Positions 31,081-45,483 of a DNA stretch of 64,000 nucleotides are shown here, one piece after another. How positions within the stretch are numbered: the stretch's first letter is position 1; every line of letters starts with the position of its first letter. The DNA is from Herbidospora yilanensis (GTDB taxonomy: Bacteria; Actinomycetota; Actinomycetes; Streptosporangiales; Streptosporangiaceae), in the NCBI RefSeq assembly GCF_001570565.1, contig NZ_BBXE01000021.1, positions 1-64,000 of the forward strand, written 5' to 3'. A program made the position numbers and the translations under genes. The notes under the pieces are model-generated. The model did not search any database, was not told where the DNA came from, and saw only the letters and a program-made list of their open reading frames with translations.

Positions 31081-32313
31081 GTGAGTACCAACCGGGTGCG
31101 AGTCGTCGTCACCGGACTCGGCACGACGACGCCCCTTGGTGGAGACGTCGCCTCGACCTGGGCGGCGCTCCTCGACGGGCGGTCGGGCATCCGCACCCTC
31201 ACCGAAGACTGGGTCGACACCGTCCCGGCGAAGTTCGCCGGCGTCGCCGCGGTCGACCCCGGTGAGGTGCTGCCCCGACCCGAGGCCAGGCGTCTCGACC
31301 GCTACGAGCAGTTCGCCCTGATCGCCGCCCGGCAGGCCTGGCAGGACGCCGGCGCGCCCGAGGTCGAGCCGACCCGGCTCGGCGTGGTCGTCGGCTCCGG
31401 CATCGGCGGCATCAACACGATCCTGCAGGCCTACGACACCTACCGCGACAAGGGGTGGAACCGGCTCTCGCCGTACACCGTCCCGATGCTCATGCCCAAC
31501 GGCGCCGCGGGCTGGATCTCCATCGACCTGGGCGCCCAGGCGGGCACCCACGCGGCGGTCAGCGCCTGCGCGACCGGCGCCGAGTCGATCGGCCAGGCCA
31601 TCGAGATGATCCGCTCCGGCCGCGCCGACGTCGTCGTCGCCGGCGGCAGCGAGGCGGCCATCCACCCGCTGAACATGGCCTCGTTCGCGGCCATGCGCGC
31701 CATGTCGACCCGCAACGACGAGCCCCACCGCGCCTCGCGCCCCTTCGACAAGGGCCGCGACGGGTTCGTGCTCGGCGAGGGCGCCGGCATCGTCGTCCTG
31801 GAGTCGGAGGCCCACGCGAAGGCGCGCGGCGCGAAGATCTACGCGGTCGCGGCCGGCGTCGGCATCACCTCCGACGGCCACCACATCTCCGCGCCGGAGC
31901 CGAGCGGCATCGGCGGCAAGACCGCGATGCTGACGGCCATCGCCGACGCGGGCATCAGCGCCGCCGACGTGCGCCACGTCAACGCCCACGCCACCTCGAC
32001 GCCCGTCGGCGACGAGATCGAGGCGCGGGCCATCCGCGAGGCGCTCCCCGGCTCCCCGCTCGTCACCTCGACCAAGTCGATGACCGGTCACCTGCTGGGC
32101 GGCGCGGGCGGCATCGAGTCCGTCTTCACGATCCTGGCGCTGAGCGAGCGCGTCGTGCCCGCCACCGCGAACCTCGACGACCCGGCCGACGGCCTCGACG
32201 TGGACATCGTGCGCGGCGAGCCGCGCAAGCTCCCCGACGGGCAACTCGCCGCGATCAACAACTCCTTCGGCTTCGGCGGCCACAACGTCGCCGTCGCCTT
32301 CACCACTGCTTGA
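31081..32313 (+). CDS. fabF: 3-oxoacyl-ACP synthase II
   Basis: 410 residues. The KAS II triad is Cys163 (SACATGAES), His303 (NAHATSTPVGD) and His337 (TGHLLGGAGG). It performs the elongating condensations of fatty acid synthesis. It begins at GTG 31081 behind AGAGGAG and is followed 22 bp later by the carboxyltransferase gene, so it is in the same operon. Confidence 0.95.
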   Translation: MSTNRVRVVVTGLGTTTPLGGDVASTWAALLDGRSGIRTLTEDWVDTVPAKFAGVAAVDPGEVLPRPEARRLDRYEQFALIAARQAWQDAGAPEVEPTRLGVVVGSGIGGINTILQAYDTYRDKGWNRLSPYTVPMLMPNGAAGWISIDLGAQAGTHAAVSACATGAESIGQAIEMIRSGRADVVVAGGSEAAIHPLNMASFAAMRAMSTRNDEPHRASRPFDKGRDGFVLGEGAGIVVLESEAHAKARGAKIYAVAAGVGITSDGHHISAPEPSGIGGKTAMLTAIADAGISAADVRHVNAHATSTPVGDEIEARAIREALPGSPLVTSTKSMTGHLLGGAGGIESVFTILALSERVVPATANLDDPADGLDVDIVRGEPRKLPDGQLAAINNSFGFGGHNVAVAFTTA

Positions 32314-32335
32314 TCAGCCGTCTGAGAGGGACGCA

Positions 32336-33760
32336 ATGACTGTCGTTGACAACAGGGTGGTGACCGCCGCCTCCGACCAGGAGGCGGCCGACCCCCGCGA
32401 TCCCGTCGTCCGGCTGGGCCACCTGCTCGACGAGGGTTCCATGCGGCTGATCTCGCCGCAGGACAAGAGCGGGGCCCTGGCGGTCACCGGCCGCGTCGAG
32501 GGCGTCCCCGTCGTGGCGTTCTGCAGCGACGCCCGCGTCCAGGGCGGCGCGATGGGCGCCGAGGGCTGCGAGCACATCGTCCACGCCTACGACGTGGCGG
32601 TCCGCGAGCGCGTGCCGATCATCGGCGTCTGGCACTCGGGCGGCGCCCGCCTCGCCGAGGGCGTGGAGTCGCTCCACGCCGTGGGCCGCGTCTTCGCGGC
32701 CATGACGAAGGCGTCGGGCATCGTGCCCCAGATCTCCGTCGTGGTCGGCGCGGCGGCGGGCGGGGCGGCCTACGGCCCGGCGCTGACCGACATCGTGATC
32801 CTCGCCGACGAGGGCCGCATCTTCGTGACCGGCCCCGACGTCGTCCGTTCCGTGACCGGCGAGACGATCGACATGGCGTCGCTGGGCGGCCCCGAGCCCC
32901 ACAGCAAGCGCAGCGGCGTGGTCCACATCGTGACCAAGTCGGAGCCCGAGGCCCTGCTGAAGGCCCGCCAGGTCGCCACCCTGCTCGGTCACCAGGGCCG
33001 GGTCCGGCTGGGCGAGGTCGGCGAAGTCGACTTCTCGACCCTGCTGCCCGACAACGTGCGCCGCGCCTACGACGTGAAGCCGCTGGTCAACGGCCTGCTC
33101 GACGAGCCGGGCGTGGAGCTCCACCCCAAGTGGGCGCCCAACATCGTGACGTCCCTGGGCCGTCTCGGCGGCCGGACCGTCGGCGTCATCGCCAACAACC
33201 CGATGCGCCTCGGCGGTTGCCTCGACTCGACCTCCGCCGAGAAGGCGGCCCGGTTCGTGCGCATGTGCGACGCGTTCGGGGTGCCGCTGGTCGTGCTGGT
33301 CGACGTGCCCGGCTACCTGCCGGGCGTCGGCCAGGAGCACGACGGCGTCGTCCGCCGCGGGGCCAAGCTCCTCCACGCGTTCGCCGAGGCCTCGGTGCCC
33401 CGGGTGACGCTGGTGACCCGCAAGTCCTACGGCGGGGCCTACATCGCGATGAACTCCCGCGCCCTCGGCGCGACCCGCGTGTTCGCCTGGCCGACGGCCC
33501 AGATCGCGGTCATGGGCGCGGTCGCGGCGGTGCGCATCCTGAAGCGGCGCGAGCTGGCCGCCGTCCCCGACGAGGAGCGGGCCGACCTCGAGAACCGCCT
33601 GGCCGAGGAGCACGAGAAGATCGCCGGCGGCCTCGACCGCGCGGTCGACCTGGGCGTGGTCGACGAGGTCATCAAGCCCGAGGAGACCCGCGGGGCCATC
33701 GCCAAGGTGATCGCCCGCGCGACGCCGGCACGGGGCGCCCACGGGAACATCCCGCTCTAG
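32336..33760 (+). CDS. Acyl-CoA carboxylase carboxyltransferase (beta) subunit
   Basis: 474 residues. The two crotonase-like halves are visible: VVAFCSDARVQGGAMGAEG, HSGGARLAEGVESL and VVGAAAGGAAYGPAL in the first, VGVIANNPMRLGGCLDSTSAEKAARF, VDVPGYLPGVGQEHDG and SYGGAYIAMNSRALGA in the second. It transfers carboxyl from biotin to an acyl-CoA. Position at the end of the fab operon resembles accD6 of Mycobacterium, which provides malonyl-CoA for FAS II. The biotin carboxylase/carrier (alpha) subunit is not in this window. Propionyl-CoA specificity cannot be excluded. Confidence 0.85.
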   Translation: MTVVDNRVVTAASDQEAADPRDPVVRLGHLLDEGSMRLISPQDKSGALAVTGRVEGVPVVAFCSDARVQGGAMGAEGCEHIVHAYDVAVRERVPIIGVWHSGGARLAEGVESLHAVGRVFAAMTKASGIVPQISVVVGAAAGGAAYGPALTDIVILADEGRIFVTGPDVVRSVTGETIDMASLGGPEPHSKRSGVVHIVTKSEPEALLKARQVATLLGHQGRVRLGEVGEVDFSTLLPDNVRRAYDVKPLVNGLLDEPGVELHPKWAPNIVTSLGRLGGRTVGVIANNPMRLGGCLDSTSAEKAARFVRMCDAFGVPLVVLVDVPGYLPGVGQEHDGVVRRGAKLLHAFAEASVPRVTLVTRKSYGGAYIAMNSRALGATRVFAWPTAQIAVMGAVAAVRILKRRELAAVPDEERADLENRLAEEHEKIAGGLDRAVDLGVVDEVIKPEETRGAIAKVIARATPARGAHGNIPL

Positions 33761-33779
33761 TTCTCCGCACGTCCTGAGC

Positions 33780-33806
33780 GCCGCTCCCGCCGCTGGCGGG
33801 GGCGGC
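33780..33806 (+). terminator. Hairpin terminator of the fab operon
   Basis: GCCGCTCCCGCC and GGCGGGGGCGGC (one U-G pair) form a 12-bp stem with a 3-nt loop 19 nt past the carboxyltransferase stop codon. There is only a weak T-rich stretch after it. Confidence 0.65.
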
Positions 33807-34360
33807 GTTCCGGCGTTCCCGGCTCTATTCGGAGCGTTTCCTGCGGGGTGCGGCCGAGCGGGGCGGCAGGGCGCGCATGTGGCCGACGCCGGGACCCTGC
33901 GCATCGACGTCGCCGGCCGCTGACCGACCTGGCCGCCGTCCACGACGAGGCGGCCACCGGCAGGCTCACCCGGCAGGACCGTTCTGTTCCCGGTCTGAGG
34001 ACTGGGGTGGCGAAAGGGTGAGCCTCCCGTCACCTACATCCCCAGGCGTGGATCCGCAATCGGGCGGGCGTCTGAACCGAAACGCTTCCGCTTGGCGAGA
34101 GAAGTCCCGAACCGACGGGGATGCGCGGGCATCTGAAACCGTCACACGGGGAGGCGGCGCCTCCGCCGGGCACCTGGTCCACGTGGCGGAAGGCTCGGGC
34201 GGTCCAGGCCGATGGGCACCCAGCGCCCGGTGTGTCGCAGAAGCGGGCAGAACGCCGGGCGGCATGCGGCACGGGAGGTGGCGGCCGGGTGAGGCGGCCC
34301 CGGCCGGTGGGCGTGGTGGAGGGCGGGTGGGCGCGCGGCCGGGGGGGGCGCGCGCCCTCG
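33807..34360. other. Intergenic, 550 bp, no supported gene
   Basis: Frames exist on both strands but none has a family match, a ribosome site or steady third-position bias. The plus strand between 33880 and 33980 briefly reads like the end of a decayed enzyme gene (DLAAVHDEAATGRL), too short to classify. A run of nine G residues lies at about 34341. Confidence 0.35.
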
Positions 34361-34858
34361 CTAGACGGCCGCGTGGAGCCAGCGGACCGGAGCGCCCTCG
34401 CCGGCGTACCGGAAGGACTCCAGTTCCTCGTCCCACTGCTTGCCGAGCAGTTTGTCGAGTTCGTCTTCCAGCACCGCGCGACCCTGGCTGGCCATCAGCA
34501 TGACGTTCCGGAGGCGGTCCTCCGGGATCAGGATGTCGCCGTTGACGCCTATGGTCGCCGTGAAGGCGCCCAGGGCGGGGGTGTACGCGTGACGGGAGCC
34601 GTCGCTGCCCGGCGACGGGTCTTCGGTGATCTCGAAGCGGATGCGCTGCCACCCCATGAGCGAAGAGGTGATCTTGGCGGCGACGCCGGCGGGCCCCTCC
34701 CATTCGGCCTGGGCGCGCAGGGCGCCCGGCGCAGCGGGCTGGGGCGTCCACGTCAGGTCGACGGGAACGCCAAGAATGCCTGCGACGGCCCACTCGATGT
34801 GTGGGCACAGCGCAGGCTGAGCCGAGTGGACGTACAGGACGCCACGAGCAGCAGCCAC
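34361..34858 (-). CDS. DUF3145 family protein
   Basis: 165 residues. The conserved blocks ARGVLYVHSAQPALCPHIEW and WEGPAGVAAKITSSLMGWQRIRFEITEDPS, and the end GKQWDEELESFRYAGE, identify DUF3145, a soluble actinobacterial family usually encoded next to the fatty acid synthase genes. Function is unknown. GTG start with GGGAGG 5 nt upstream. It is divergent from the sigma factor gene. Confidence 0.85.
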   Translation of the reverse strand: MAAARGVLYVHSAQPALCPHIEWAVAGILGVPVDLTWTPQPAAPGALRAQAEWEGPAGVAAKITSSLMGWQRIRFEITEDPSPGSDGSRHAYTPALGAFTATIGVNGDILIPEDRLRNVMLMASQGRAVLEDELDKLLGKQWDEELESFRYAGEGAPVRWLHAAV

Positions 34859-35168
34859 CGGACCTCCCGATTCGTACGAGGTGCGCCTTCCCCAACGGCC
34901 TCATACTGGGATGATCACAAGTGACTCTAGGAGAGACTACCGTCCGTCGCGGCGGGGCACCAGAGGAGGGTCATACCGATTCCCGCTTGGCCGCCAAGCG
35001 AATCGGTCTCTCCTGAAGGCGTAAATCGGCGCGATCGTGGAAGTTGGCCGTCCTTCCGGAATTCCGCGATCTCACCGGGCCGCGCCGGACACCATGGTTA
35101 GAGTTGCTCACGCAACGCTCCTCTGTCAGCACCGTCGGTGAGGTCGGTGCGGAAAGGGTCAGTGACGC
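34859..35168. promoter_or_regulatory. Divergent promoter region of DUF3145 and the sigma/CHAT module
   Basis: This 310-bp gap contains three inverted repeats. A stem-loop at 34976-35006 pairs CCGATTC..GCTTGG with CCAAGCGAATCGG with a 2-nt bulge and 3-nt loop. CGGAATTCCG lies at 35057-35066. GTTGC-TCAC-GCAAC lies at 35103-35116, about 55 bp before the sigma factor start. One or more could be operators or autoregulated promoter elements. No coding frame is supported. Confidence 0.4.
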
Positions 35169-35726
35169 GTGCTTTTCGAGGTCCACGACGAATCGATCCC
35201 TCTCGATCTGCTCGACGACCACGCATGGTCTGAGCTGGTCGCCAGTTTCAACGGTCAGATGTGGGCCGTGGCGCGGGCGGCGGGTCTGGGGGCGGCGGAC
35301 GCGGCCGACGCCGTACAGGGAGCGTGGCTCCGGCTGGTCGAGAGCGTCGACCGCATCCGCGACCCGCGGGCGGTCGGCGCGTGGCTGATGACGACGACGC
35401 GGCGCGAGGCGTTGCGGCTCGGCCGCCGGGCCGGGCAGGAGTTCCCGGCCGACCCGCCCGACCTCTACGAACATCCCACGCTGGCGGCGCCCGACCCGAC
35501 GACCGAGATCGTCGACGCCGACTACGGGCGCACCCTCTGGTCGCGCGTGTCCCGGCTCAGCGAGCCGTGCCGGACCATGCTCCGGCTCTTCGCCCTCAAC
35601 CCCGACGTGCGGTACGCGCAGGTCGCGGCCCGCATGCACCTGCCCCTGGGCAGCGTGGGGCCGACCCGGGCCCGGTGTTCGGCCAAACTCCGGAATCTGC
35701 TCGCGGAGGATCCCCTTGAGTGCTGA
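35169..35726 (+). CDS. Sigma-70 family (ECF-like) RNA polymerase sigma factor
   Basis: 185 residues. Region 2 (about 22-88) has ASFNGQMWAVARAAGLGAADA, AWLRLVESVDRIRDPRAVGAWLMTTTRREALRLGR, with the WLMTTTRREA stretch of sigma2.3-2.4. Region 4 (about 125-180) has LSEPCRTMLRLFALNPDVRYAQVAARM, LPLGSVGPTRARCSAKLRNLL, a helix-turn-helix ending in the ARC-KLR pattern of ECF-type factors. It has no region 1.1 or region 3. The next two genes overlap it and each other, so it is probably controlled by them. Confidence 0.85.
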   Translation: MLFEVHDESIPLDLLDDHAWSELVASFNGQMWAVARAAGLGAADAADAVQGAWLRLVESVDRIRDPRAVGAWLMTTTRREALRLGRRAGQEFPADPPDLYEHPTLAAPDPTTEIVDADYGRTLWSRVSRLSEPCRTMLRLFALNPDVRYAQVAARMHLPLGSVGPTRARCSAKLRNLLAEDPLEC

Positions 35727-36177
35727 CGAGGCGGCGCTGGAGACGTACATGCTGGCCGCGATGCGTCTGGCGGCCCAGGCCGACCCGGTGCCCGGACGCC
35801 TGGCGGCCGACGCCATGGCCGCTCTCGCGATGCGCCTGCCGGGCTGCGTCGTCGCGACCCCGGCCGACCTGGCAGCCGCCTCGGGCGCACGGGCGGGCGG
35901 AAAGCCGCAGATGCACCGGTTCGCGGCCGGCGACACGACCCTCGACGTCGAGACGACCATCAACGAGGGCCGCCTGGAGATCGCCGGCCAGGTGAGCCCG
36001 CCGCCCGCGCCCAGCGCCTACGTGGAGGTCCGCACCCCTCACGTGACGAAGGTCCGGGTGCCCTCCGCCGACGGCCAGTTCGCCGTTGCCGGGCTCCCGC
36101 CCGGCTGGGTGAGCGTGGCCTACCACCGCCCGAGCGACGCCCCGGTGGTCACCCGCTGGCTGCGTGTCCGCGCCTGA
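35716..36177 (+). CDS. Small partner protein with C-terminal beta-sandwich
   Basis: 153 residues, TTG start overlapping the sigma stop by 11 nt. Residues 1-60 are helical (ALETYMLAAMRLAAQADPVPGRLAADAMAALAMR). Residues about 70-150 are beta-rich: TTLDVETTINEGRLEIAGQV, YVEVRTPHVTKVRVPSADGQ, FAVAGLPPGWVSVAYHRP, resembling small carboxypeptidase-regulatory or T-like sandwich domains. There is no membrane span. By position and overlap it is a candidate regulator of the sigma factor, for example an unusual soluble anti-sigma protein and possible substrate of the CHAT protease that follows. This is inference. Confidence 0.65.
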   Translation: MSADEAALETYMLAAMRLAAQADPVPGRLAADAMAALAMRLPGCVVATPADLAAASGARAGGKPQMHRFAAGDTTLDVETTINEGRLEIAGQVSPPPAPSAYVEVRTPHVTKVRVPSADGQFAVAGLPPGWVSVAYHRPSDAPVVTRWLRVRA

Positions 36178-38323
36178 GTCCTACGGCCCGTTCGCGGCGG
36201 CCCGCCGCGCCGACATCCTGGCGGCGTTCGACGTCCATCTGACCGCCGAGGATCGCCTGTACGAGTCCCCGGAGCGCCTGGCCCTCACCCGAGCCGAGTT
36301 CGCCTCGGCCCTCGTCGGAGCGCGCCTCCCGGGCGAGGCCCGGATGCTCCTCGAACTGGCCCTGCCCGACCTGGCCTCGACCCGCCCGGCGACCGCCCAC
36401 GCCCGGCTGCTGCTCGCGACGGTCGAGTTGCTGACGGGAGACGTGCGGCGCGCGGAGGACACGGCTTCGACGGCCCTGACGGAGTTCCGGCGGCTGGGAC
36501 GGGCGACGTGGGAACCGAGAGCGCGGGACGTGTTGTTGCGGGCACGACTGGCCCAGTGGTCGGAGATCGGGCACGAGCCCGGACCACCGACACGCGTGGG
36601 CGAGAGTGGGCACGAGCCCGGACCACCGACACGCGTGACCGAAAGCGGGCACCAGCACGGGCCACCGACGCCGGCGGCCGAAAGCGGGCACGAGCACGGA
36701 CCGCCGACGCCGGCGGCCGAGAGCGGGCTCGAATACACACCGCCGGCGGGGCGGCCGAATCAGGCGGGTGAAACCGGGCTCGACGACGGGTTTCTCGGCG
36801 AGTGCGCGGCCGGGGCCGACGGGCTGGAGGTTGCGGGGTGGCGGTCGGAGGCCGACGAACTGCGGTTGTTCGCGGTGTCGGCGTTCGTGCGACGGTGCGG
36901 TCGCGGGCTCGGCGGGCTGGTGGTGGCGCAGCGGATGCTGGACCGGGTTCGGGACGGGTCCGCGTGTGCGGCCACGCGGTTCCACGCGGAGGCGGTGCGG
37001 CGATGGGCGGGCGGCGATCTCGGCGAGGCGCTCGAACTGACCCGGCTGGGGTTCGCCGAGTCGCTCCGGGAGATGTCCCGGCTGGCCTCGGACACGACTC
37101 CCGGGCACCCGGCTCCTGAGCCGCCTGCCTCGATGACGACCGAGGGAGATCCGCCCGGCCTCCGCCGCGCCACGCCGCCACCGATCCCGGAGCCCGGCCC
37201 CGCCATTCGCACGTCCCGAAATTTCGGGACATCGACGCTGGGTGCCGTGCCGCACGTGAAGCGGCTCGCCGACGAACGCTGGCGGGCCTCCCGGGTGGCC
37301 GAGGAGATCGCGACGCTGGGGCTGGAGCTGTCAATCAGGCAGGAGAACGCCGGCAAGGTGCTGCTCTGGTCGGAGCGGTGGCGGGCTCTCGTCAGCGGTG
37401 CGGAGCCGGTGGCCGGGCGGCCCGAGGTGCTGGTCGAGCTGGTACGCGACCAGGACGCCCTCCACGCCGTGGTCGCCCACGCCGACCGAATCTCCCTGCA
37501 CGGCCTGGGTTCGTTGTCGGCGGTCACCGAGGCGATGGTGCGGATCCGCTACAACCTGCGCAGGAGGAACCTCCGCGACACCCGGCCCGAGGGTGAGGAG
37601 GGGCTGTCGCCCGGCCTGCTGCGGGAGTTGTCCGCGCTCGACGAGGCACTGGTCCGGCCGCTCGGGCTGCCGCCGGGGGCCGTCAGCGTGGTCCCCACCG
37701 CCGCGCTGCACTCCCTGCCCTGGTCGCTGCTGCCGTCGCTGCGCGGGCGGGCCGTGTCGGTCGCGCCCTCGGCCGCGCTGGCCGTCGCGCGCCGGGAGGC
37801 CGACGGGCCCGTGGTGGCGCTCGCGGGGCCCGATCTGGCCCATGCGGAGCAGGAGGTGGCGGCGGTGGTGGGCGTACACGAGAAGGGAGAGCGGGTGCCC
37901 GCCACGCGGGGCGCGCTGCTGGCGGCCCTCGGGCGGGCGGGCATCGTGCACATCGCCGCGCACGGCATCTTCTCCGGGCGGCGGCCGATGATGTCGAGCA
38001 TCCTCCTGGACGACGGTCCGCTGCTGGTGCACGAGTTCTTCCGCCTGACGCGGGTGCCGCCCCTGGTGGTGTTGTCCTCGTGCGACGCCGGAATGGCCTC
38101 GGCTCCCGCCGACGGTGCGGCGTTCGGGCTGGCGGGAGCCTTCCTCGACCGCGGGGCGCGCACGGTGATCGCGGGCATCGTGCCGGTCCGCGACGACGAG
38201 GCGGCCCGCCTGATGGTGGAGTTCCACCGGCTGCTCGCCCGGGGGCGGTCCCCGGCTCAGGCCCTCGCGGCGGCGGCCACGGCCACCGATGTGCCGGGAT
38301 TCGCCTGCTTCGGTGCCGGTTGA
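36164..38323 (+). CDS. CHAT-domain protease with helical repeats
   Basis: 719 residues, GTG start overlapping the previous gene by 14 nt. Residues about 5-130 are TPR-like helices (ARMLLELALPDLASTRPATA, ARLLLATVELLTGDVRRAED). Residues about 136-200 hold a 13-residue tandem repeat. More helices follow, then a CHAT domain (about 430-719): AVSVVPTAALHSLPWSLLPSL, HIAAHGIFSGRRP with His600, and VVLSSCDAGMASA with Cys640, the caspase-like dyad, and the final AGAFLDRGARTVIAGIVPVRDDEAA. CHAT proteases cut partner proteins on a signal sensed by attached repeats. Operonic position behind a sigma factor suggests the cut releases or destroys a sigma-control protein. Confidence 0.85.
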   Translation: MSAPESYGPFAAARRADILAAFDVHLTAEDRLYESPERLALTRAEFASALVGARLPGEARMLLELALPDLASTRPATAHARLLLATVELLTGDVRRAEDTASTALTEFRRLGRATWEPRARDVLLRARLAQWSEIGHEPGPPTRVGESGHEPGPPTRVTESGHQHGPPTPAAESGHEHGPPTPAAESGLEYTPPAGRPNQAGETGLDDGFLGECAAGADGLEVAGWRSEADELRLFAVSAFVRRCGRGLGGLVVAQRMLDRVRDGSACAATRFHAEAVRRWAGGDLGEALELTRLGFAESLREMSRLASDTTPGHPAPEPPASMTTEGDPPGLRRATPPPIPEPGPAIRTSRNFGTSTLGAVPHVKRLADERWRASRVAEEIATLGLELSIRQENAGKVLLWSERWRALVSGAEPVAGRPEVLVELVRDQDALHAVVAHADRISLHGLGSLSAVTEAMVRIRYNLRRRNLRDTRPEGEEGLSPGLLRELSALDEALVRPLGLPPGAVSVVPTAALHSLPWSLLPSLRGRAVSVAPSAALAVARREADGPVVALAGPDLAHAEQEVAAVVGVHEKGERVPATRGALLAALGRAGIVHIAAHGIFSGRRPMMSSILLDDGPLLVHEFFRLTRVPPLVVLSSCDAGMASAPADGAAFGLAGAFLDRGARTVIAGIVPVRDDEAARLMVEFHRLLARGRSPAQALAAAATATDVPGFACFGAG
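36569..36751 (+). repeat. 39-bp coding minisatellite inside the CHAT gene
   Basis: Four full 39-nt units (36569-36607, 36608-36646, 36647-36685, 36686-36724) and a decayed fifth encode G-H-E-P-G-P-P-T-R/P plus linker, of 13 residues each. The first two units are nearly identical to each other and so are the third and fourth, showing stepwise duplication. Copy number is likely to vary between strains. Confidence 0.8.
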
Positions 38324-38342
38324 GAAGCCGGTTGAAGCGTGT

Positions 38343-39323
38343 TCAGCTCGCCGGGCCGGGAAGCTCCAGGTCCGCGAAGACGCCCTTGTGGTCGGTGCCC
38401 GGGAGGAGGTGGACCGAGAAGGCGTGCACCGCCGTCCGGTCGTCGGCCAGGACGTGGTCGATGGCCACGGGCGGGATGGGCAGCCCGTGAAGGTCGCGGG
38501 GAAGGGCCGGCCAGGTCGTGAGAAGCCCGTCGCCGGTCGCCTCGGCCGCGTCGCGGTAGCCGGAGGCGAGCAGGTCGCGGACTCTGGCATGGTCCACCGT
38601 CGCGTTGAAGTCGCCGATCAGGATCCTGGCCGGGCCGCCGGGTCTGGGAAGCGCGTCGAGGCCCTCGCCCCAGCACCGGTGCAGCCTCCCCGTGTAGGGC
38701 GCGCACGGGTGGACCGACACCATGTCGACGACCACGCCGTCGACGTCCAGCCGCCCCATGAGCTGGCCGAACCCGCCGAAGTCGAGCAACCCCACGCGGG
38801 TCACCGGGAAACGCGAGTAGATGCCCGACCCGCGGGTGCCCGGCCGGTCTTCCGTCACCCGGTGGGGCAGCAGGGCGTCGATGCCCGCGCGCCCCATCGC
38901 CTCCACCGCGGAAGGGGTCAGCTCCTGGAAGGCGACCGCGTCGGCCCGGAGCTCCCGGACCAGCCGCACGATCTCCTCCGCGGGCGCCCCGCCCGCGAGC
39001 AGGTTCACCGCCAGTACCCGCAGCCTGGGCCCTCCCCCACCGGAGGGGCTCTCGCCGACCATCCGAGGCACGACGATCACCGCGAACACCAGGCACACCA
39101 CCAGCGCGGCGCCACCCGCCGCCCATCGGCGGGTCAGCAACGCCAGGACAAGGGCCACCGGCGACGCCAACGCCGCATAGGGGGTGAACGCCACCAGTTG
39201 CACCCACACGAACGCCACGTCGCCGGGGAAGAGCCACAACCCCGCCCACACGGCGAACACCGCGACGATCACCCAGACGGCCACCGTCACCCATATCCGC
39301 CGTCGAGCCGGGGAAAAGGCCAC
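38343..39323 (-). CDS. Membrane-anchored endonuclease/exonuclease/phosphatase (EEP) protein
   Basis: 326 residues. Three N-terminal spans (IWVTVAVWVIVAVFAVWAGL, AFTPYAALASPVALVLAL, GAALVVCLVFAVIVVP) lead into an extracytoplasmic EEP domain (about 105-325): RVLAVNLLAG, AVAFQELTP with the metal Glu, VSVHPCAPY, ILIGDFNAT with Asp/Asn, AIDHVLAD and GTDHKGVFADL with the catalytic Asp-His. EEP enzymes cut phosphodiesters in nucleic acids or phospholipids. GTG 39323 is the only plausible start, and it follows the rhodanese stop by 15 bp in the same operon. Confidence 0.8.
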   Translation of the reverse strand: MAFSPARRRIWVTVAVWVIVAVFAVWAGLWLFPGDVAFVWVQLVAFTPYAALASPVALVLALLTRRWAAGGAALVVCLVFAVIVVPRMVGESPSGGGGPRLRVLAVNLLAGGAPAEEIVRLVRELRADAVAFQELTPSAVEAMGRAGIDALLPHRVTEDRPGTRGSGIYSRFPVTRVGLLDFGGFGQLMGRLDVDGVVVDMVSVHPCAPYTGRLHRCWGEGLDALPRPGGPARILIGDFNATVDHARVRDLLASGYRDAAEATGDGLLTTWPALPRDLHGLPIPPVAIDHVLADDRTAVHAFSVHLLPGTDHKGVFADLELPGPAS

Positions 39324-39337
39324 GGGATCGGTGTCGA

Positions 39338-40144
39338 TCAGGGCCTCTCCACCGGACGGCCGGGGTCGGTGATCCACTCGGACCACGATCCGGCGTACAG
39401 GGACGCCGTGATGCCGGCCGACTCCAGCGCCAGCACCTCGTGGGCCGCCGTCACGCCGCTGCCGCAGTAGGCGCCCACCGGCACGCCCTCGACGACGCCG
39501 AGGGTGTTGAAGCGCTCGCGCAGGAACTCGGGCCGGTGGAAACGGCCGCCGGGCTCCAGGTTCTCGGTCGTCGGCGCGTTGACCGCGCCGGGGATGTGCC
39601 CGGCCACGGGGTCGACCGGCTCCACCTCGCCCCGGTAGCGCTCGGGGGCGCGGGCGTCGAGGAGGACGCCGTCGTCGGCGAGGATCGCCGCCTGGGCGGC
39701 GGTGATCAGCGGCATGCCGCCGGGGCGGGCGGTGAAGTCGCCGGGGGCCACGTCGGGCGTGTCCTTGGACGACTCGCCCGTCCAGGCCTTCAGTCCGCCG
39801 TCGAGCACCCGGACGTCGGGGTGCCCGAAGTAGCGCAGGCACCACCAGGCGCGGGCGGCGGCCAGGGCGTTCCAGTCGTCGTACACGACGACCGGACGGC
39901 CGCCGGAGACGCCGAGGGCCCGCATGGACGCCTCGAACGCGGCGGCGGAGGGCAGCGGGTGACGCCCGCCCGCGCCCGCCGGGGCCGCGAGGGCGGTGTC
40001 GAGGTCGCAGTAGACCGCGCCGGGGATGTGGCCGAGGGCGTATTCGGCCGGGCCGGGCGGGCCGCCGAGACGCCAGCGCACGTCGAGGACGGTCACCCCG
40101 CCCAGGTCGTCGGCGAGTTCGGCGGCGGTGATCAGTGGGCTCAT
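39338..40144 (-). CDS. Two-domain rhodanese sulfurtransferase
   Basis: 268 residues, two rhodanese folds. The first (LDVRWRLGGPPGPAEYALGH, HIPGAVYCDLDTALA, VVVYDDWNALAAAR) has no active cysteine; the second ends with AYCGSGVTAAHEVLAL, where the Cys (about residue 230) starts the active loop CGSGVTA typical of thiosulfate/3-mercaptopyruvate sulfurtransferases. Length matches the family. It starts in an ATGA overlap with the phosphodiesterase gene. Confidence 0.9.
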   Translation of the reverse strand: MSPLITAAELADDLGGVTVLDVRWRLGGPPGPAEYALGHIPGAVYCDLDTALAAPAGAGGRHPLPSAAAFEASMRALGVSGGRPVVVYDDWNALAAARAWWCLRYFGHPDVRVLDGGLKAWTGESSKDTPDVAPGDFTARPGGMPLITAAQAAILADDGVLLDARAPERYRGEVEPVDPVAGHIPGAVNAPTTENLEPGGRFHRPEFLRERFNTLGVVEGVPVGAYCGSGVTAAHEVLALESAGITASLYAGSWSEWITDPGRPVERP

Positions 40145-41229
40145 CGGCGGATCTCCAAGAAGGGCACGTTCTGTTCGGCGGGGGTGACCGACCCGTGATA
40201 GCCGGTCATCGACCACTCCAGCGGTTCTGTCCGGGACGACGCGATCACACACTCCCCGCCGGCCACGGCGACGACGTCGCCGACCCGGCCCAGCAGGGCG
40301 GGGTCGACCGGGCCGAACCAGCCGGCGTCGACCGCCTCTTCGCGGGTGGCGACCCCGGCCCGGTCGCCGAGCACCGAGCGCCACGTCTGGAGCACCGCGC
40401 CTGCCGCGCCGGGGACCGTGTAGAGGTGGCGCAGCCGGGCCTCGCCGCCGACCAGGGCGACGCCCTCGGTGAGTTCGGGGTGGCGGTCGAGGTCGACCTT
40501 GTCGGTGGCGTTGACCATGCCGTGGTCGGCGGTGACGTAGAGGACCCCGCCGGGCGGCAGCGCCGCGGCGAGCCGTTCGGCCAGGCCGTCGACGATCTCC
40601 AGTTGGTCGAGCCATTCGGGCGAGCCCCAGCCGGTCATGTGGCCCATCGCGTCGAGCTCGCCGTAATAGCAGGTCACGTAGGCCCTGGGGGTCGCGCGCA
40701 GGGCGGCGTGCACACCCGCGACCCGTTCGTCGAGGGTGTCGGCCGGGATGTAGCGCACGCCCCGGTAGACCGCCTCGGTGAGGCCGGTGCCATTGAAGGC
40801 GGCGGGCGCGACGTAGGAGGAGGCGACGTCGAGGCGGGCCAGCCGCTGGAACACGGTGTCGACGGGCTGCCAGGTCAGCGGGTCGACGGGCGGGCCGTCG
40901 GTCTTCCAGCGCAGGCAGTTGAGCAGGCGGTTCTCGCCGGGCACCGCGACGGTGATGCCGAGCATCCCGTGGTTGCCCGACAGGACGCCGGTCCCGATGG
41001 TCGCCAGGCTGGTCGGGGTCGACGACGGCAGGCCGGCCGTGAGCACCCGGGCGAGGGCCGAGGACAGGAACGGCGCCCGGGACGGGTGGGCGGCGAGCAG
41101 GTCGGCGCCCATGCCGTCGACGATGAACAGGCACACCTTCTCGGCCGGGTCGAGCCCCAGCGTGCCGCCGCCGGCTCCGTCGAAGGTGGCGTGGACGGAA
41201 CCGGCGATGTCGGCGAGGGTGGCCATCAC
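40141..41229 (-). CDS. Alkaline phosphatase superfamily phosphodiesterase
   Basis: 362 residues. The nucleotide pyrophosphatase/phosphodiesterase core is clear: VCLFIVDGMGADLL (first metal Asp), SSTPTSLATIGTGV with the nucleophile Thr, YGELDAMGHMTGWG with Asp-x3-His, and VTADHGM with the metal Asp-His pair. There is no signal peptide, so it acts in the cytoplasm, or is exported by an unseen route. It overlaps DUF5998 at GTGA (41226-41229) and the rhodanese gene at ATGA, so all are translated together. The substrate is unknown. Confidence 0.85.
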   Translation of the reverse strand: MMATLADIAGSVHATFDGAGGGTLGLDPAEKVCLFIVDGMGADLLAAHPSRAPFLSSALARVLTAGLPSSTPTSLATIGTGVLSGNHGMLGITVAVPGENRLLNCLRWKTDGPPVDPLTWQPVDTVFQRLARLDVASSYVAPAAFNGTGLTEAVYRGVRYIPADTLDERVAGVHAALRATPRAYVTCYYGELDAMGHMTGWGSPEWLDQLEIVDGLAERLAAALPPGGVLYVTADHGMVNATDKVDLDRHPELTEGVALVGGEARLRHLYTVPGAAGAVLQTWRSVLGDRAGVATREEAVDAGWFGPVDPALLGRVGDVVAVAGGECVIASSRTEPLEWSMTGYHGSVTPAEQNVPFLEIRR

Positions 41230-41810
41230 GTGCGCGCCGTCGCCTCCGACAGGGCACGGGCGAAGGCCAGGACGTGGCGCACGGCCTCGGGGCCGTCGGC
41301 GGCCTCGCTGACGCGGAGCTGGAGGTCGTCGGCGGTGATCGAGCCGGTGTAGCCGTGGTCGGCCTCGCAGTTCTCGTCACCGCAGGTGGCGGGTTCGAGG
41401 TCGACGTGGGAGATGGCGCCCCAGCCGATGGTGAGCGTCACCTCGCTGGGGGCGACGCCGGGCGAGTAGGACGCGGGGTCGGGGACGAGCCGGGTGAGCG
41501 CGACGGACTGGACCCGGCTCAACCGGACCGCCTCGGTCGTCGTGGACGCGTGGGAGGCGGGGTTTCCCTCGGCGGGCGGGTGTTCGTCGGTGTGGCAGAC
41601 GAGCAACCGGGTGGGCGACAACACCAGGACCGTGACATGCCGGCGCACTTCCATGGCCGGGTCGAACGTGGCCTCGTGGTGGACGACGTAGGCGCTGACG
41701 CTCTCCTTGCCCAGGGCGGAATCGACGGCGTCGGCGACCAGGTCGGGGTAGTAGCCACTTCGGTCGATGGCCTCGCGCAGACCTGCAGCCGAGACTCGGG
41801 TATCCCTCAT
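41226..41810 (-). CDS. DUF5998 family protein
   Basis: 194 residues. GLREAIDRSGYYPDLVADAVDSAL, FDPAMEVRRHVTVLVLSPTRLLVCHTDEH and SRVQSVALTRLVPDP identify DUF5998, a soluble actinobacterial family of unknown role. A CGDENCEADHGYTG segment (about 150-163) puts two Cys and one His together and may bind zinc. First gene of the four-gene operon; start at ATG 41810, as the longer frame has no site. Confidence 0.8.
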   Translation of the reverse strand: MRDTRVSAAGLREAIDRSGYYPDLVADAVDSALGKESVSAYVVHHEATFDPAMEVRRHVTVLVLSPTRLLVCHTDEHPPAEGNPASHASTTTEAVRLSRVQSVALTRLVPDPASYSPGVAPSEVTLTIGWGAISHVDLEPATCGDENCEADHGYTGSITADDLQLRVSEAADGPEAVRHVLAFARALSEATART

Positions 41811-41867
41811 GGGACCATCCTGCCCTGTCACCCACCCTGATTTCACCGGGGTGATAACACGGGGCTG

Positions 41868-44438
41868 TCAGGATGGGAGCCGCCGGGGGCCGACGTCCGG
41901 GCGCGGCCCGGTGACGGCCTTCAGCACCGCCCGTGCGCCCAGCACGTGGACACCGTTCTCACCCACCAGGACGGGATCGAGGCGCAGCGCCGCGACCTGC
42001 GGATGCGCGTCGGCCAGCCGCCCGATCCGGCACAGCAGCTCCTCCAGATCGGCCACCGCCACGGGCGGATAGCCGTGCGCGCCGAACAGCAGCGGCGCGG
42101 CCTTGGGCGCCCGGACCAGCCCGGCGGCGTCTTCAGCCGTCAGCGGAGCGAGCCGGTAGGCGTCGTCGCCGAGCAGCCGGGCGGCGATCTCGCCCAGCCC
42201 GAACGACACGACGGCCCCGAAGTCGCGGTCCTGCACCGAGGTGACCACGGTCGGCACGGCGGGCTGCGGCGCCATCCGCTGGACCGCCAGCCGGGGCCCG
42301 AGAACCCCTTCCAGGTCCGTGTACGCCCGCGCGACCGCCCCTTCGTCGGGCAGGGCCAGGCGGACCGTCCCGGCGCGGCCGGTGCCGTCCCACTTGACCA
42401 CGACGGGAAAACCCAGCCGCCGGGCCGCCGCGACCGCCTCCTCGGGCGAGCTCACGGTCTCCGAGGGCCAGACCTCCACGCCGTAGGCCCGCAGGAGATC
42501 GGCGGCGTCGATCTCGACCGGCTCCTCGGCCGCCCGGCAGACGATCTCCCGGGCGGCGACCACGTCGATCCCGCCGAGTTCGGGGATCGTGCCCTCGTCG
42601 CCGCGGCGCCACTGCGCGTGGCGTACCGCCAGAGCCAGGGCCCTGACCGCCTCCTCGGGCGCCGGATAGGACGGGATCGAACCCCGCGCGGGACCCTCTC
42701 CCGGCGCGCGCAGCGCGGCCGGGACCCCGGCCTCGCCCCGGAAGGTGGCCAGCACCGGCTTGCCGCTCTCCCCCGCGACCCGCACCAGCTCGGCGGCGAC
42801 CTCGGCGTCGGGGCCGGGACCCGGCGGCATGTAGACGACCACGGCCGCGTCGACGTCCGGGAGGACCGATGAGAGCGCCGCGCCGAACTCGGCGGCCCCG
42901 GCGCGGGCGCCGAGGTCGGCGGTCGACGGGGCGAGGCCCGCGCTGACGCAGGCGTGGGCGGCCAGCCGGGCCAGGGCGTCGGAGTTGCTGACGATCCCGA
43001 CGCGCGGCCCTTCGGGGAGCGGCTGGCAGGCGAGCAACTGGGCGACGTCGAAGAGCTGGGTGAGGTCGTCGACCCGGATCACGCCGGCCTGCTCGAACAG
43101 CGTCGACACCGCGCCGTCGGGCAGCCCGAACTCGGTGGCCTGCGACTTCACCGCCACGATCGGCTTGGTGCGGGAGATGCGCCGGGCCAGGCGGGTGAAC
43201 TTGCGCGGGTTGCCCATCGACTCCAGATAGAGGAGGACGACCTCGGTCGCGGGGTCCTCCTCCCAGTACTGGAGCAGGTCGTTGCCGGACACGTCGGCCC
43301 GGTTCCCGGCGGAGACGAAGGTGGAGATGCCCAGGCCGCGCTGGTCGACGCGGTGCAGCAGGGCGGTGCCGAGTGCGCCCGACTGGCTGAAGAAGCCGAT
43401 GCGGCCGCGCGCGGGCAGCCGTTCGGCCAGGGTGGCGTTGAGCTTGATCGACCGGTCGGTGTTGGCGATGCCGAGGCAGTTGGGCCCGACGACCCGCATG
43501 CCGTAGGCGCGGGAGATCCGCACCAGTTCCTGCTCGCGCCGCCGCCCCTCCTCACCCGTCTCGGCGAAGCCGCTGGAGACCACGACCAGGCCCTTCACCC
43601 CTTTCTGGGCGCACTCCTCGACCACGTCCAGCACGCTCTCGGCCGGGACGGCCACGACCGCCAGGTCGACCTCCTCGTCGATCGCGGCCATGTTCCTGTA
43701 CGCCCGCACCCCCGCGACCGCCCGCACCTCTCTGTGCACCGGGTAGACCGGCCCGGTGAACTCGGCCCGGAGCAGGTTGCGCAGCACGGTCTGCCCGATT
43801 CCGCCCGGCTCCCGGCTGGCCCCGATGACGACGACCGACTCGGGCTTGAGCAGCCGCTCGATCGACCGGGCCTCGGCGCGGTGCTCCCGCCCGGTCACCA
43901 CCTCGACCGAGTCGGGGGTGCTCGCGAGGTCGAGGGTCATCCGGACGACGCCGTCCTCGAACGTGCTCTGCGCCGTGTATCCGGCCTGCCGGAACATCTG
44001 GGTCATCCGGTGGTTGGCGGGCAGCACGTCGGCGATGAAGGTCCGGATGCCGCGCTCGCGGGCGGCGGCGCGCAGGTGTTCGAGCAGCACCGCCGCGAGC
44101 CCGCGCCCCTGGTGGGCGTCTTCGACGAGGAAGGCCACCTCGGCGTGGTCGGCGGGCTTGACCCGGTCGTAACGGACGACCGCCACCATCTCCGTTCCGA
44201 TGGTGGCGATCAGGGCGAGCCGGTCGTTGTAGTCGACCGTCGTGAAGCGGGTGACCTCCCGTTCCGAGAGGCGCGGACGGGGGCCGAAGAAACGGAAGTA
44301 GATCGACTGGGCGGAGAGGCGGGAGTAGAAGGAACGCAACGGTTCGGCGTCATCGGGGCGGATGGGCCGCAGGTGAGCGGTGCCGCCGTCGGCCAGGACG
44401 ACGTCGGCCTCCCAGTGCGGCGGATACGCGGGTTCCAC
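41868..44438 (-). CDS. GNAT acetyltransferase fused to ADP-forming acyl-CoA synthetase (Pat type)
   Basis: 856 residues. Residues about 8-165 are a GNAT domain (LRPIRPDDAEPLRSFYSRLS, VEDAHQGRGLAAVLLEHL as the acetyl-CoA loop, NHRMTQMFRQAGY). Then a CoA-binding domain (VVVIGASREPGGIGQTVLRNL), ligase domains (GFFSQSGALGTALL, STFVSAGNRADVSGNDLLQY) and an ATP-grasp (about 640-850, AARRLGFPVVVKWDGTG). This is the architecture of actinobacterial protein acetyltransferases that acetylate acyl-CoA synthetases; the synthetase part is often inactive and serves as a sensor. The order here is GNAT first, opposite to E. coli PatZ. GTG 44438 is 6 nt below TACCCT, so the message may be leaderless. Confidence 0.85.
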   Translation of the reverse strand: MEPAYPPHWEADVVLADGGTAHLRPIRPDDAEPLRSFYSRLSAQSIYFRFFGPRPRLSEREVTRFTTVDYNDRLALIATIGTEMVAVVRYDRVKPADHAEVAFLVEDAHQGRGLAAVLLEHLRAAARERGIRTFIADVLPANHRMTQMFRQAGYTAQSTFEDGVVRMTLDLASTPDSVEVVTGREHRAEARSIERLLKPESVVVIGASREPGGIGQTVLRNLLRAEFTGPVYPVHREVRAVAGVRAYRNMAAIDEEVDLAVVAVPAESVLDVVEECAQKGVKGLVVVSSGFAETGEEGRRREQELVRISRAYGMRVVGPNCLGIANTDRSIKLNATLAERLPARGRIGFFSQSGALGTALLHRVDQRGLGISTFVSAGNRADVSGNDLLQYWEEDPATEVVLLYLESMGNPRKFTRLARRISRTKPIVAVKSQATEFGLPDGAVSTLFEQAGVIRVDDLTQLFDVAQLLACQPLPEGPRVGIVSNSDALARLAAHACVSAGLAPSTADLGARAGAAEFGAALSSVLPDVDAAVVVYMPPGPGPDAEVAAELVRVAGESGKPVLATFRGEAGVPAALRAPGEGPARGSIPSYPAPEEAVRALALAVRHAQWRRGDEGTIPELGGIDVVAAREIVCRAAEEPVEIDAADLLRAYGVEVWPSETVSSPEEAVAAARRLGFPVVVKWDGTGRAGTVRLALPDEGAVARAYTDLEGVLGPRLAVQRMAPQPAVPTVVTSVQDRDFGAVVSFGLGEIAARLLGDDAYRLAPLTAEDAAGLVRAPKAAPLLFGAHGYPPVAVADLEELLCRIGRLADAHPQVAALRLDPVLVGENGVHVLGARAVLKAVTGPRPDVGPRRLPS

Positions 44439-44589
44439 CTTTCGAGGGTATCTGTGCACAAACGCGGGGGTTGGGCAACGGATGTGCATCGACTGTGTAC
44501 GAGTGTCCGCCTCACCCCCCACGAAGCTTGCAGAAGCTGTTAAGTTTCCGGGGTCAGCGTCGATTTGCAGTAAGCAAGGTGGTGACATC

Positions 44590-45483
44590 ATGACGCGGGT
44601 CGTCGTGGTGGGCGATCTCATGACCGACGCGGTCGCCCGCGCCAGGTATCCGCTCGCCCGGGCTAGCGACACTCCGGCCGTGGTGACCATGCACGGTGGC
44701 GGCTCCGGGGCCAACATCGCCTCGTGGCTCGCCGTCGAGGGCTCCGAGGTCGCCTTCATCGGGCGTCGCGGCGCCGACATCACCGGCCGCAACCGCGACA
44801 TGGAGCTGATGGGCTACGGCGTCGACGCCCGGCTCGTCATGGATCCCGAGCGCCCCACCGGCACCTGCGTCGTCCTGGTCACCCACAAGGGCGAGCGCAC
44901 GATGCTCTCCGACCCCGGCGCCAACGCCGCGCTGTCGCCGGAAGACCTGCCCCGTGACCTGTTCACCCAGGGCGGTCACCTGCACATGTCGGGTTACACG
45001 CTGATCTGCGAGGGCTCCCGCGATGCCGGTCTGGCCGCCCTCGACCTGGCCCGCCGCGCCGGCATGTCGATCTCGGTCGACTGCGCCTCCTCCGCGCCGG
45101 TCGAGCGCACCGGCGCCGAGCCGTTCCTCGAATGGACCCACGGCGCGAAGTTGCTGTTCGCCAACGCCGACCAGGCCAAGGTGCTGACCGGCCGCGACGA
45201 GCCCGAGGCGGCCGCCAAGGTGCTGACCGCCTGGTTCCCGCAGGTCGTGATCAAGTGCAACGCCGACGGCGCGCTCTGGTACAGCAACAACCGGTCCGAC
45301 GCCGTCAAGGTCCCGGCCGAGCAGGTCGAGCGGGTCGTCGACGGCACCGGCGCGGGTGACGCGTTCGCCGCCGGGTTCCTGCCGAGCTGGCTCGACGGCA
45401 AGCAGCCGGCCGACGCCCTGGCGGCGGGCAACGCCCTGGCCGCCAAGTGCCTGGCCAACCTGGGCGCGCGCCCCCGGCTCTAG
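44590..45483 (+). CDS. PfkB family carbohydrate kinase
   Basis: 297 residues. The ribokinase/PfkB fold shows MHGGGSGANIASWLAVEG near the N-terminus, and DGTGAGDAFAAGFLPSWLDG (catalytic Asp in GAGD about 257) near the C-terminus. The substrate is a sugar or nucleoside; close relatives in actinomycetes are annotated only as carbohydrate kinases. ATG with AAGGTGG 9 nt upstream. It is divergent from the PatA-type gene, though the shared gap is only 150 bp. Confidence 0.85.
   Translation: MTRVVVVGDLMTDAVARARYPLARASDTPAVVTMHGGGSGANIASWLAVEGSEVAFIGRRGADITGRNRDMELMGYGVDARLVMDPERPTGTCVVLVTHKGERTMLSDPGANAALSPEDLPRDLFTQGGHLHMSGYTLICEGSRDAGLAALDLARRAGMSISVDCASSAPVERTGAEPFLEWTHGAKLLFANADQAKVLTGRDEPEAAAKVLTAWFPQVVIKCNADGALWYSNNRSDAVKVPAEQVERVVDGTGAGDAFAAGFLPSWLDGKQPADALAAGNALAAKCLANLGARPRL

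Follow-up and report, generated by a model that had tools for sequence, protein, structure and literature searches.

How a caspase-like protease might be coupled to a bacterial sigma factor outside a CRISPR system is the question raised by three overlapping genes of Herbidospora yilanensis, an actinomycete of the family Streptosporangiaceae. The genes lie on the forward strand of the first 64,000 nucleotides of contig NZ_BBXE01000021.1 (hereafter the window). In order they encode an extracytoplasmic function (ECF)-type sigma factor of 185 residues (S; 35169–35726, GTG start), a two-domain protein of 153 residues recognised by its AlphaFold2 model and profile matches (M; 35716–36177, TTG start, GGAGG upstream), and a 719-residue protein that joins tetratricopeptide repeat (TPR) helices to a CHAT protease domain (C; 36164–38323, GTG start). 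A first-pass annotation of the sequence had given overlaps of 11 nt for S/M and 14 nt for M/C, and its coordinates are right. It had also proposed a CRISPR-free switch in which the middle protein inhibits the sigma factor until the protease cleaves it. Here we find that a CRISPR-free set of sigma factor, M and CHAT protein does exist, that it is conserved and that its members occur together, and that M carries a near-invariant linker arginine at which C may cut it.

To establish how widely the genes travel together, a profile of M was searched against related genomes. It matched 183 of 200 genomes of the family (Streptosporangiaceae), 94 of 296 of the class and 20 of 198 of the phylum, 15 of the last lying outside the class. 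At the 66 family loci compared (60 further fetched stretches and six from Herbidospora), M has S as its same-strand neighbour in every case, a CHAT gene lies within the fetched stretch in 65, and the order S-M-C, which the first-pass annotation had suggested looking for in other actinomycetes, is kept on one strand in 62. The exceptions have C on the opposite strand (L094, L096, L098) or no C that could be seen (L093). L093 is also unusual in that two M genes, on opposite strands, flank a single S near a contig end (1519–3271). Among the class loci (L104–L122), S stands beside M at 19/19 and C is in the fetched stretch at 16/19, and the genomes of those without a near-by C (L108, L112, L117) hold C elsewhere. 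Eleven phylum loci have S beside M in nine cases and C in the stretch in six. Such steady placement of M next to a sigma factor gene, which does not extend to L103, resembles that of anti-sigma factor genes.

Presence of the three genes is linked across genomes as well. Orthologues of C (E up to 1e-20) were found in 20/20 M-positive versus 0/20 M-negative genomes, and those of S (E up to 1e-15) in the same proportions, giving p = 7e-12 if the genomes are treated as independent, although they are related and their sizes unmatched. The M-positive sample consisted of G166, 14 class genomes and five of the 15 same-phylum matches; G226 was left out because it was already covered by a separate check of eight M-positive genomes, all of which contain C. 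The M-negative sample was the first 20 genomes without a match in the class search, one per family and smaller overall. None of these 20 keeps the sigma factor and the CHAT protein while missing M, an arrangement that would have spoken against the first-pass proposal. M and C lie apart in the M-positive genomes G576, G546, G616 and G641, and G506, one of the five from the phylum, has further M copies, one of them near C and S on contig 248. When 150 family genomes were searched, nine had no CHAT match, and eight of these also had no M match; G024 combines a missing CHAT match with a weak M match (8.9e-6). Five of the 150 had a CHAT match without an M match. The match is weak in G035 (9.0e-8), G055 (3.7e-16) and G093 (6.4e-8). 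It is stronger in G052 (3.6e-48), where it lies at the beginning of a contig, and in G082 (3.5e-33), a genome 67% complete; these two may be real exceptions or assembly gaps.

Judged by protein distances, S, M and C co-vary more than control genes do, a comparison of the kind that the first-pass annotation had suggested. Partial correlations were 0.60–0.66 for S-C, 0.48 and 0.72 for M-C, and 0.36 and 0.51 for S-M; they give weak backing to the set and do not assign either domain of M to S or to C.

Additional copies of these genes were observed in several places. On contig 37 of the genome that contains the window (L103, 5080–10117), one further copy each of M and of the CHAT gene stands together with an S8 subtilase and without a sigma factor, and contig 35 carries a second S (40035–40541). 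At L143 (6743–18181) two M/CHAT/subtilase sets adjoin, with a sigma factor in the first only. Two records of a plasmid collection match, the better of them from Nonomuraea gerenzanensis, where subtilase, S, M and C are all present, unannotated.

What kind of protein is M? Its AlphaFold2 model (mean predicted local distance difference test score, pLDDT, 89) matches the helical N-terminus and beta-sandwich C-terminus that had been read from the sequence. Helices span residues 3–21 and 27–38 (35722–35829 for residues 3–38) and may form the sigma-facing part, and beta strands from residue 65 to residue 151 (35908–36168) form a sandwich resembling immunoglobulin (Ig) or fibronectin type III (FN3) domains. 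Between them runs a linker (residues 51–64, 35866–35907) that is partly disordered, with pLDDT below 50 at residues 56–61, and whose length, across the 61 rows aligned, varies between 19 and 62 residues. Within this linker Arg59 (codon 35890–35892) is the candidate P1 cleavage residue. It is arginine in 60/61 rows, its column holds 3.25 bits compared with a mean of 1.07 for the remaining columns of 51–64, and its context is [V/A]-R-[S/G]. Because gaps let arginines stack, the motif was also counted independently of the alignment column. Here, [AVILT]R[SGADT] occurs in 55/61 linkers versus 22.1 ± 3.6 after shuffling, and in 36/40 linkers at <70% identity versus 15.3 ± 3.0. The class and phylum sequences examined carry V-R-G/S or near variants, with L116 unclear, and the motif is present in the second M of the same genome, which has no adjacent sigma gene. 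Across six named Herbidospora genomes M is 84–97% identical. A near-invariant arginine in a disordered linker is what a cut site might have, and to this extent the linker of M is substrate-like.

The protein proposed to make the cut, C, contains a Pfam CHAT domain at residues 488–705 (37625–38278; E 1.1e-31), and its predicted structure bears out the TPR-CHAT, caspase-like fold claimed for it by resembling both Csx29 and separase. Structures matched by the model include Csx29 from its complex with Csx30 (E 1.5e-11), the anti-sigma factor DdvA (entries 8rot/8rw5; fold E 7e-11, CHAT sequence 3.3e-9) and separase (Z 26.1, root-mean-square deviation 3.2, 294 residues). The catalytic dyad, His600 (37961–37963) and Cys640 (38081–38083), had been described as intact and is invariant in the 48 aligned C proteins (48/48 each). 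Two acidic residues are conserved alongside it: Glu564 (37853–37855) in 48/48, and Asp677 (38192–38194) in 47/48 with one gap. According to the available portions of two studies, D2070 of human separase contacts the P1 arginine of the substrate (PMC12609080), and a C. elegans separase model uses Glu917 and Asp1082 (PMC4626109). Judged by position and fold, without superposition, Glu564 and Asp677 would be the counterparts of the separase acids that hold P1 arginine. As candidate S1-pocket acids they could therefore hold a P1 arginine in C. In a HMMER alignment, the Asp677 column contains Ser in Csx29 and Asp in DdvA. At the other end of the protein, 41 of the 48 aligned C proteins are longer at the front than that of Herbidospora, most commonly by 114 residues, taking starts at face value; the Herbidospora form of the locus is subtilase-free, with a C that starts later than in most relatives. 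C also contains 39-nt tandem repeats (36563–36757), found by repeat search, which encode a 13-residue repeat in an insert modelled with low confidence.

The third protein, S, had been described as a sigma factor with regions 2 and 4. Region 2 is matched by Pfam (Sigma70_r2, E 1.3e-9). The Pfam region 4 model gave no match up to E 1, so the assignment of region 4 rests on the ECF model TIGR02937, which spans the whole length of the protein (E 7.7e-14).

In the mechanism that we propose, M would hold S in check while the TPR part of C reads a signal; the CHAT protease of C would then cut M after linker Arg59, and this cut would part the N-terminal helices of M from its Ig-like domain, releasing S. 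We give this whole chain, with M as an anti-sigma factor whose cleavage by C changes the activity of S, about an even chance of being right, judging from sequences and predicted structures.

One of the nearest studied parallels is Craspase, the type III-E CRISPR system of Csx29, Csx30 and CASP-sigma, in which Csx30 inhibits CASP-sigma and cleavage is proposed to relieve the inhibition (PMC10028731, available portion). Both systems combine a TPR-CHAT protease, a two-domain protein with a flexible cut loop (a candidate one in M) and an ECF sigma factor. However, M is far smaller than Csx30, comparing sizes without direct alignment, and C has Asp where Csx29 has Ser; alanine scanning of Csx30 found no residue essential for cleavage, according to the same portion of that paper. 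No CRISPR array is present in 33000–42000, where direct repeats are confined to C, and Pfam found no Cas-like or Cas7-11 protein among the eight neighbours in 31081–44801 submitted to it, the whole genome not having been searched for Cas7-11. The DdvA-DdvS pair of Myxococcus xanthus, the other near parallel, is a CRISPR-free ECF sigma and anti-sigma pair, in which DdvS is active once DdvA is inactivated (PMC4374960, available portion). DdvA, however, is itself the anti-sigma factor, transmembrane by its entry title, whereas in the present set the intermediary between CHAT and sigma is a small protein in its own right. Separase has the same protease fold, and the likely counterparts of the acids with which it holds P1 arginine are conserved in C, but it is a eukaryotic cohesin protease that cuts ExxR sites and works without a sigma factor.

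Sigma factors of group ECF54 come closest in gene context. According to a review (PMC8999054), their proteolytic control was proposed from the carboxypeptidase, subtilase and CHAT genes found near them, with no anti-sigma factor. The context here largely agrees with this, CHAT gene included, so the link between sigma factor and CHAT protein is not new; the likeness of S to ECF54 rests on this gene context. The differences are that the Herbidospora loci have no subtilase and that M, by the tests used here, is no recognisable peptidase. Its best Pfam match is CarboxypepD_reg, a regulatory-like domain, at E 0.028, under the cut-off, and the 'carboxypeptidase' of the published ECF54 context is probably M.

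The ECF54 literature also supplies an alternative in which CHAT protein and subtilase act on the sigma factor directly, without an anti-sigma factor, and M is an accessory or scaffold. Section 3.3 of PMC8999054 reports that proteolysis of this kind was proposed, the gene context largely matches, and S-C distances co-vary strongly. Against this, the linkage of M with S and C in the 40 genomes is as strict as that between S and C themselves, and M has the substrate-like conserved arginine in a disordered linker, S not having been scanned for such a site. We therefore regard direct proteolysis of S as unlikely. A somewhat better case, though still one we doubt, can be made that M inhibits the CHAT protease or serves as its adaptor, engaging it through V-R as a pseudosubstrate in the manner of securin, with the sigma factor as readout or as driver of the set. 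Securin mimics substrate and blocks the separase active site (PMC12609080, available portion), L103 and the second set of L143 contain M, C and a subtilase and lack S, and the M-C correlations exceed those of S-M. On the other hand, the split loci L108, L112, L117, L134, L137 and L142 keep M with S and not with C.

If M is cut, the protease could also be the S8 subtilase, with CHAT as a downstream effector or sensor. Of the 60 family loci outside Herbidospora, 42 have a subtilase gene upstream of S and in the same orientation, and 15/19 class loci (L104–L122) have one in some orientation. By contrast, none of the six Herbidospora loci has one, a mere 310 bp separating DUF3145 from S in the window, and yet Arg59 is kept. 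What favours C over the subtilase as the protease of M is that Arg59 persists in Herbidospora, whose locus has no subtilase, and that M tracks C across genomes. The subtilase encoded on a different contig of the same genome might nevertheless act in trans, and overall we consider cleavage by the subtilase improbable. More improbable again is a role in defence or abortive infection, with cell killing by CHAT or subtilase and its timing set by S and M. PADLOC matches BovA to C residues 612–684 (E 7.2e-10) and its 'subtilase' to the L114 subtilase (E 1.3e-12), and the available portion of PMC8195603 describes caspase-like domains with ECF sigma factors and TPRs in bacterial conflict neighbourhoods. 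These neighbourhoods differ in being centred on TRADD-N and EACC2 domains, and no M-like partner is named in that portion. PADLOC had no match for S or M. Moreover, the set keeps one chromosomal place, with DUF3145 alongside in 60/66 family loci and, in 50/66, a gene for a rhodanese or a phosphodiesterase. This constancy, together with the prevalence of M in the family, looks like vertical inheritance and not a defence island.

Several observations weigh against the proposal that C cuts M after Arg59 to release S. Gene order and co-occurrence demonstrate linkage and are silent on the direction of control, and S-C distances co-vary about as well as the pairs that involve M. Subtilase genes stand in 58/86 M-bearing loci (Pfam PF00082 confirmed in three examples), where the subtilase could be the true M protease. 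M lacks a clear adjacent S in L103, L135 and L138, and may therefore also serve C alone. The linker alignment is gappy, so that an aligner is prone to stack arginines, the linkers average 2.4 arginines each, and the strict motif is missing from 6/61. Among Pfam and NCBIfam models no anti-sigma model was listed for M, and its profile had 0 matches up to E 1 among PDB sequences. Fold comparison assigned M no clear fold, the Ig/FN3 likeness being weak (best Z 8.1), and neither an anti-sigma factor nor Csx30 was among the matches displayed, where a missing match excludes nothing.

The region upstream of S offered a further view of its control. The first-pass annotation had suggested an autoregulatory promoter, and none of the ECF type was seen. 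Each of the few ECF-type -35/-10 patterns tried turned up in between 0 and 6 of the 57 upstream regions, and autoregulation of S is therefore not supported. Instead, a housekeeping-like -10 element, TAGAGT, lies at 35099–35104 on the forward strand within a block conserved in the aligned Herbidospora upstream regions, and a similar block is visible upstream in L042, L055 and L071. The strongest common upstream motifs fall within the leader of the divergent DUF3145 gene. This leader (34859–34960) is strikingly conserved in its own right, 8-mers from it recurring in ~20 of 37 representative upstream regions. In the wider surroundings (31081–44801), the order ketoacyl synthase, carboxyltransferase, DUF3145, rhodanese, phosphodiesterase and DUF5998 is kept in many family loci, and genes downstream of the set are met again in other families (L108, L109, L112, L113, L114, L117).

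The interpretation from which we started is plausible, sharper now than when it was made, and partly anticipated in print. In a literature search that left most subscription papers outside, we recognised no paper naming M or testing an S-M-C module. Apparently new are the third partner M, not recognisable as a peptidase, the conserved arginine in its linker, the finding that S, M and C co-occur, and the form of the set in Herbidospora, which lacks the subtilase. For a CHAT protease family of many Actinomycetota, the analysis puts forward a possible substrate and, within it, a single residue at which the cut may fall, and it narrows the control of ECF54-type sigma factors to a one-residue question. 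Should the proposal hold, Craspase-type sigma switches under protease control would exist without CRISPR, as core regulators.

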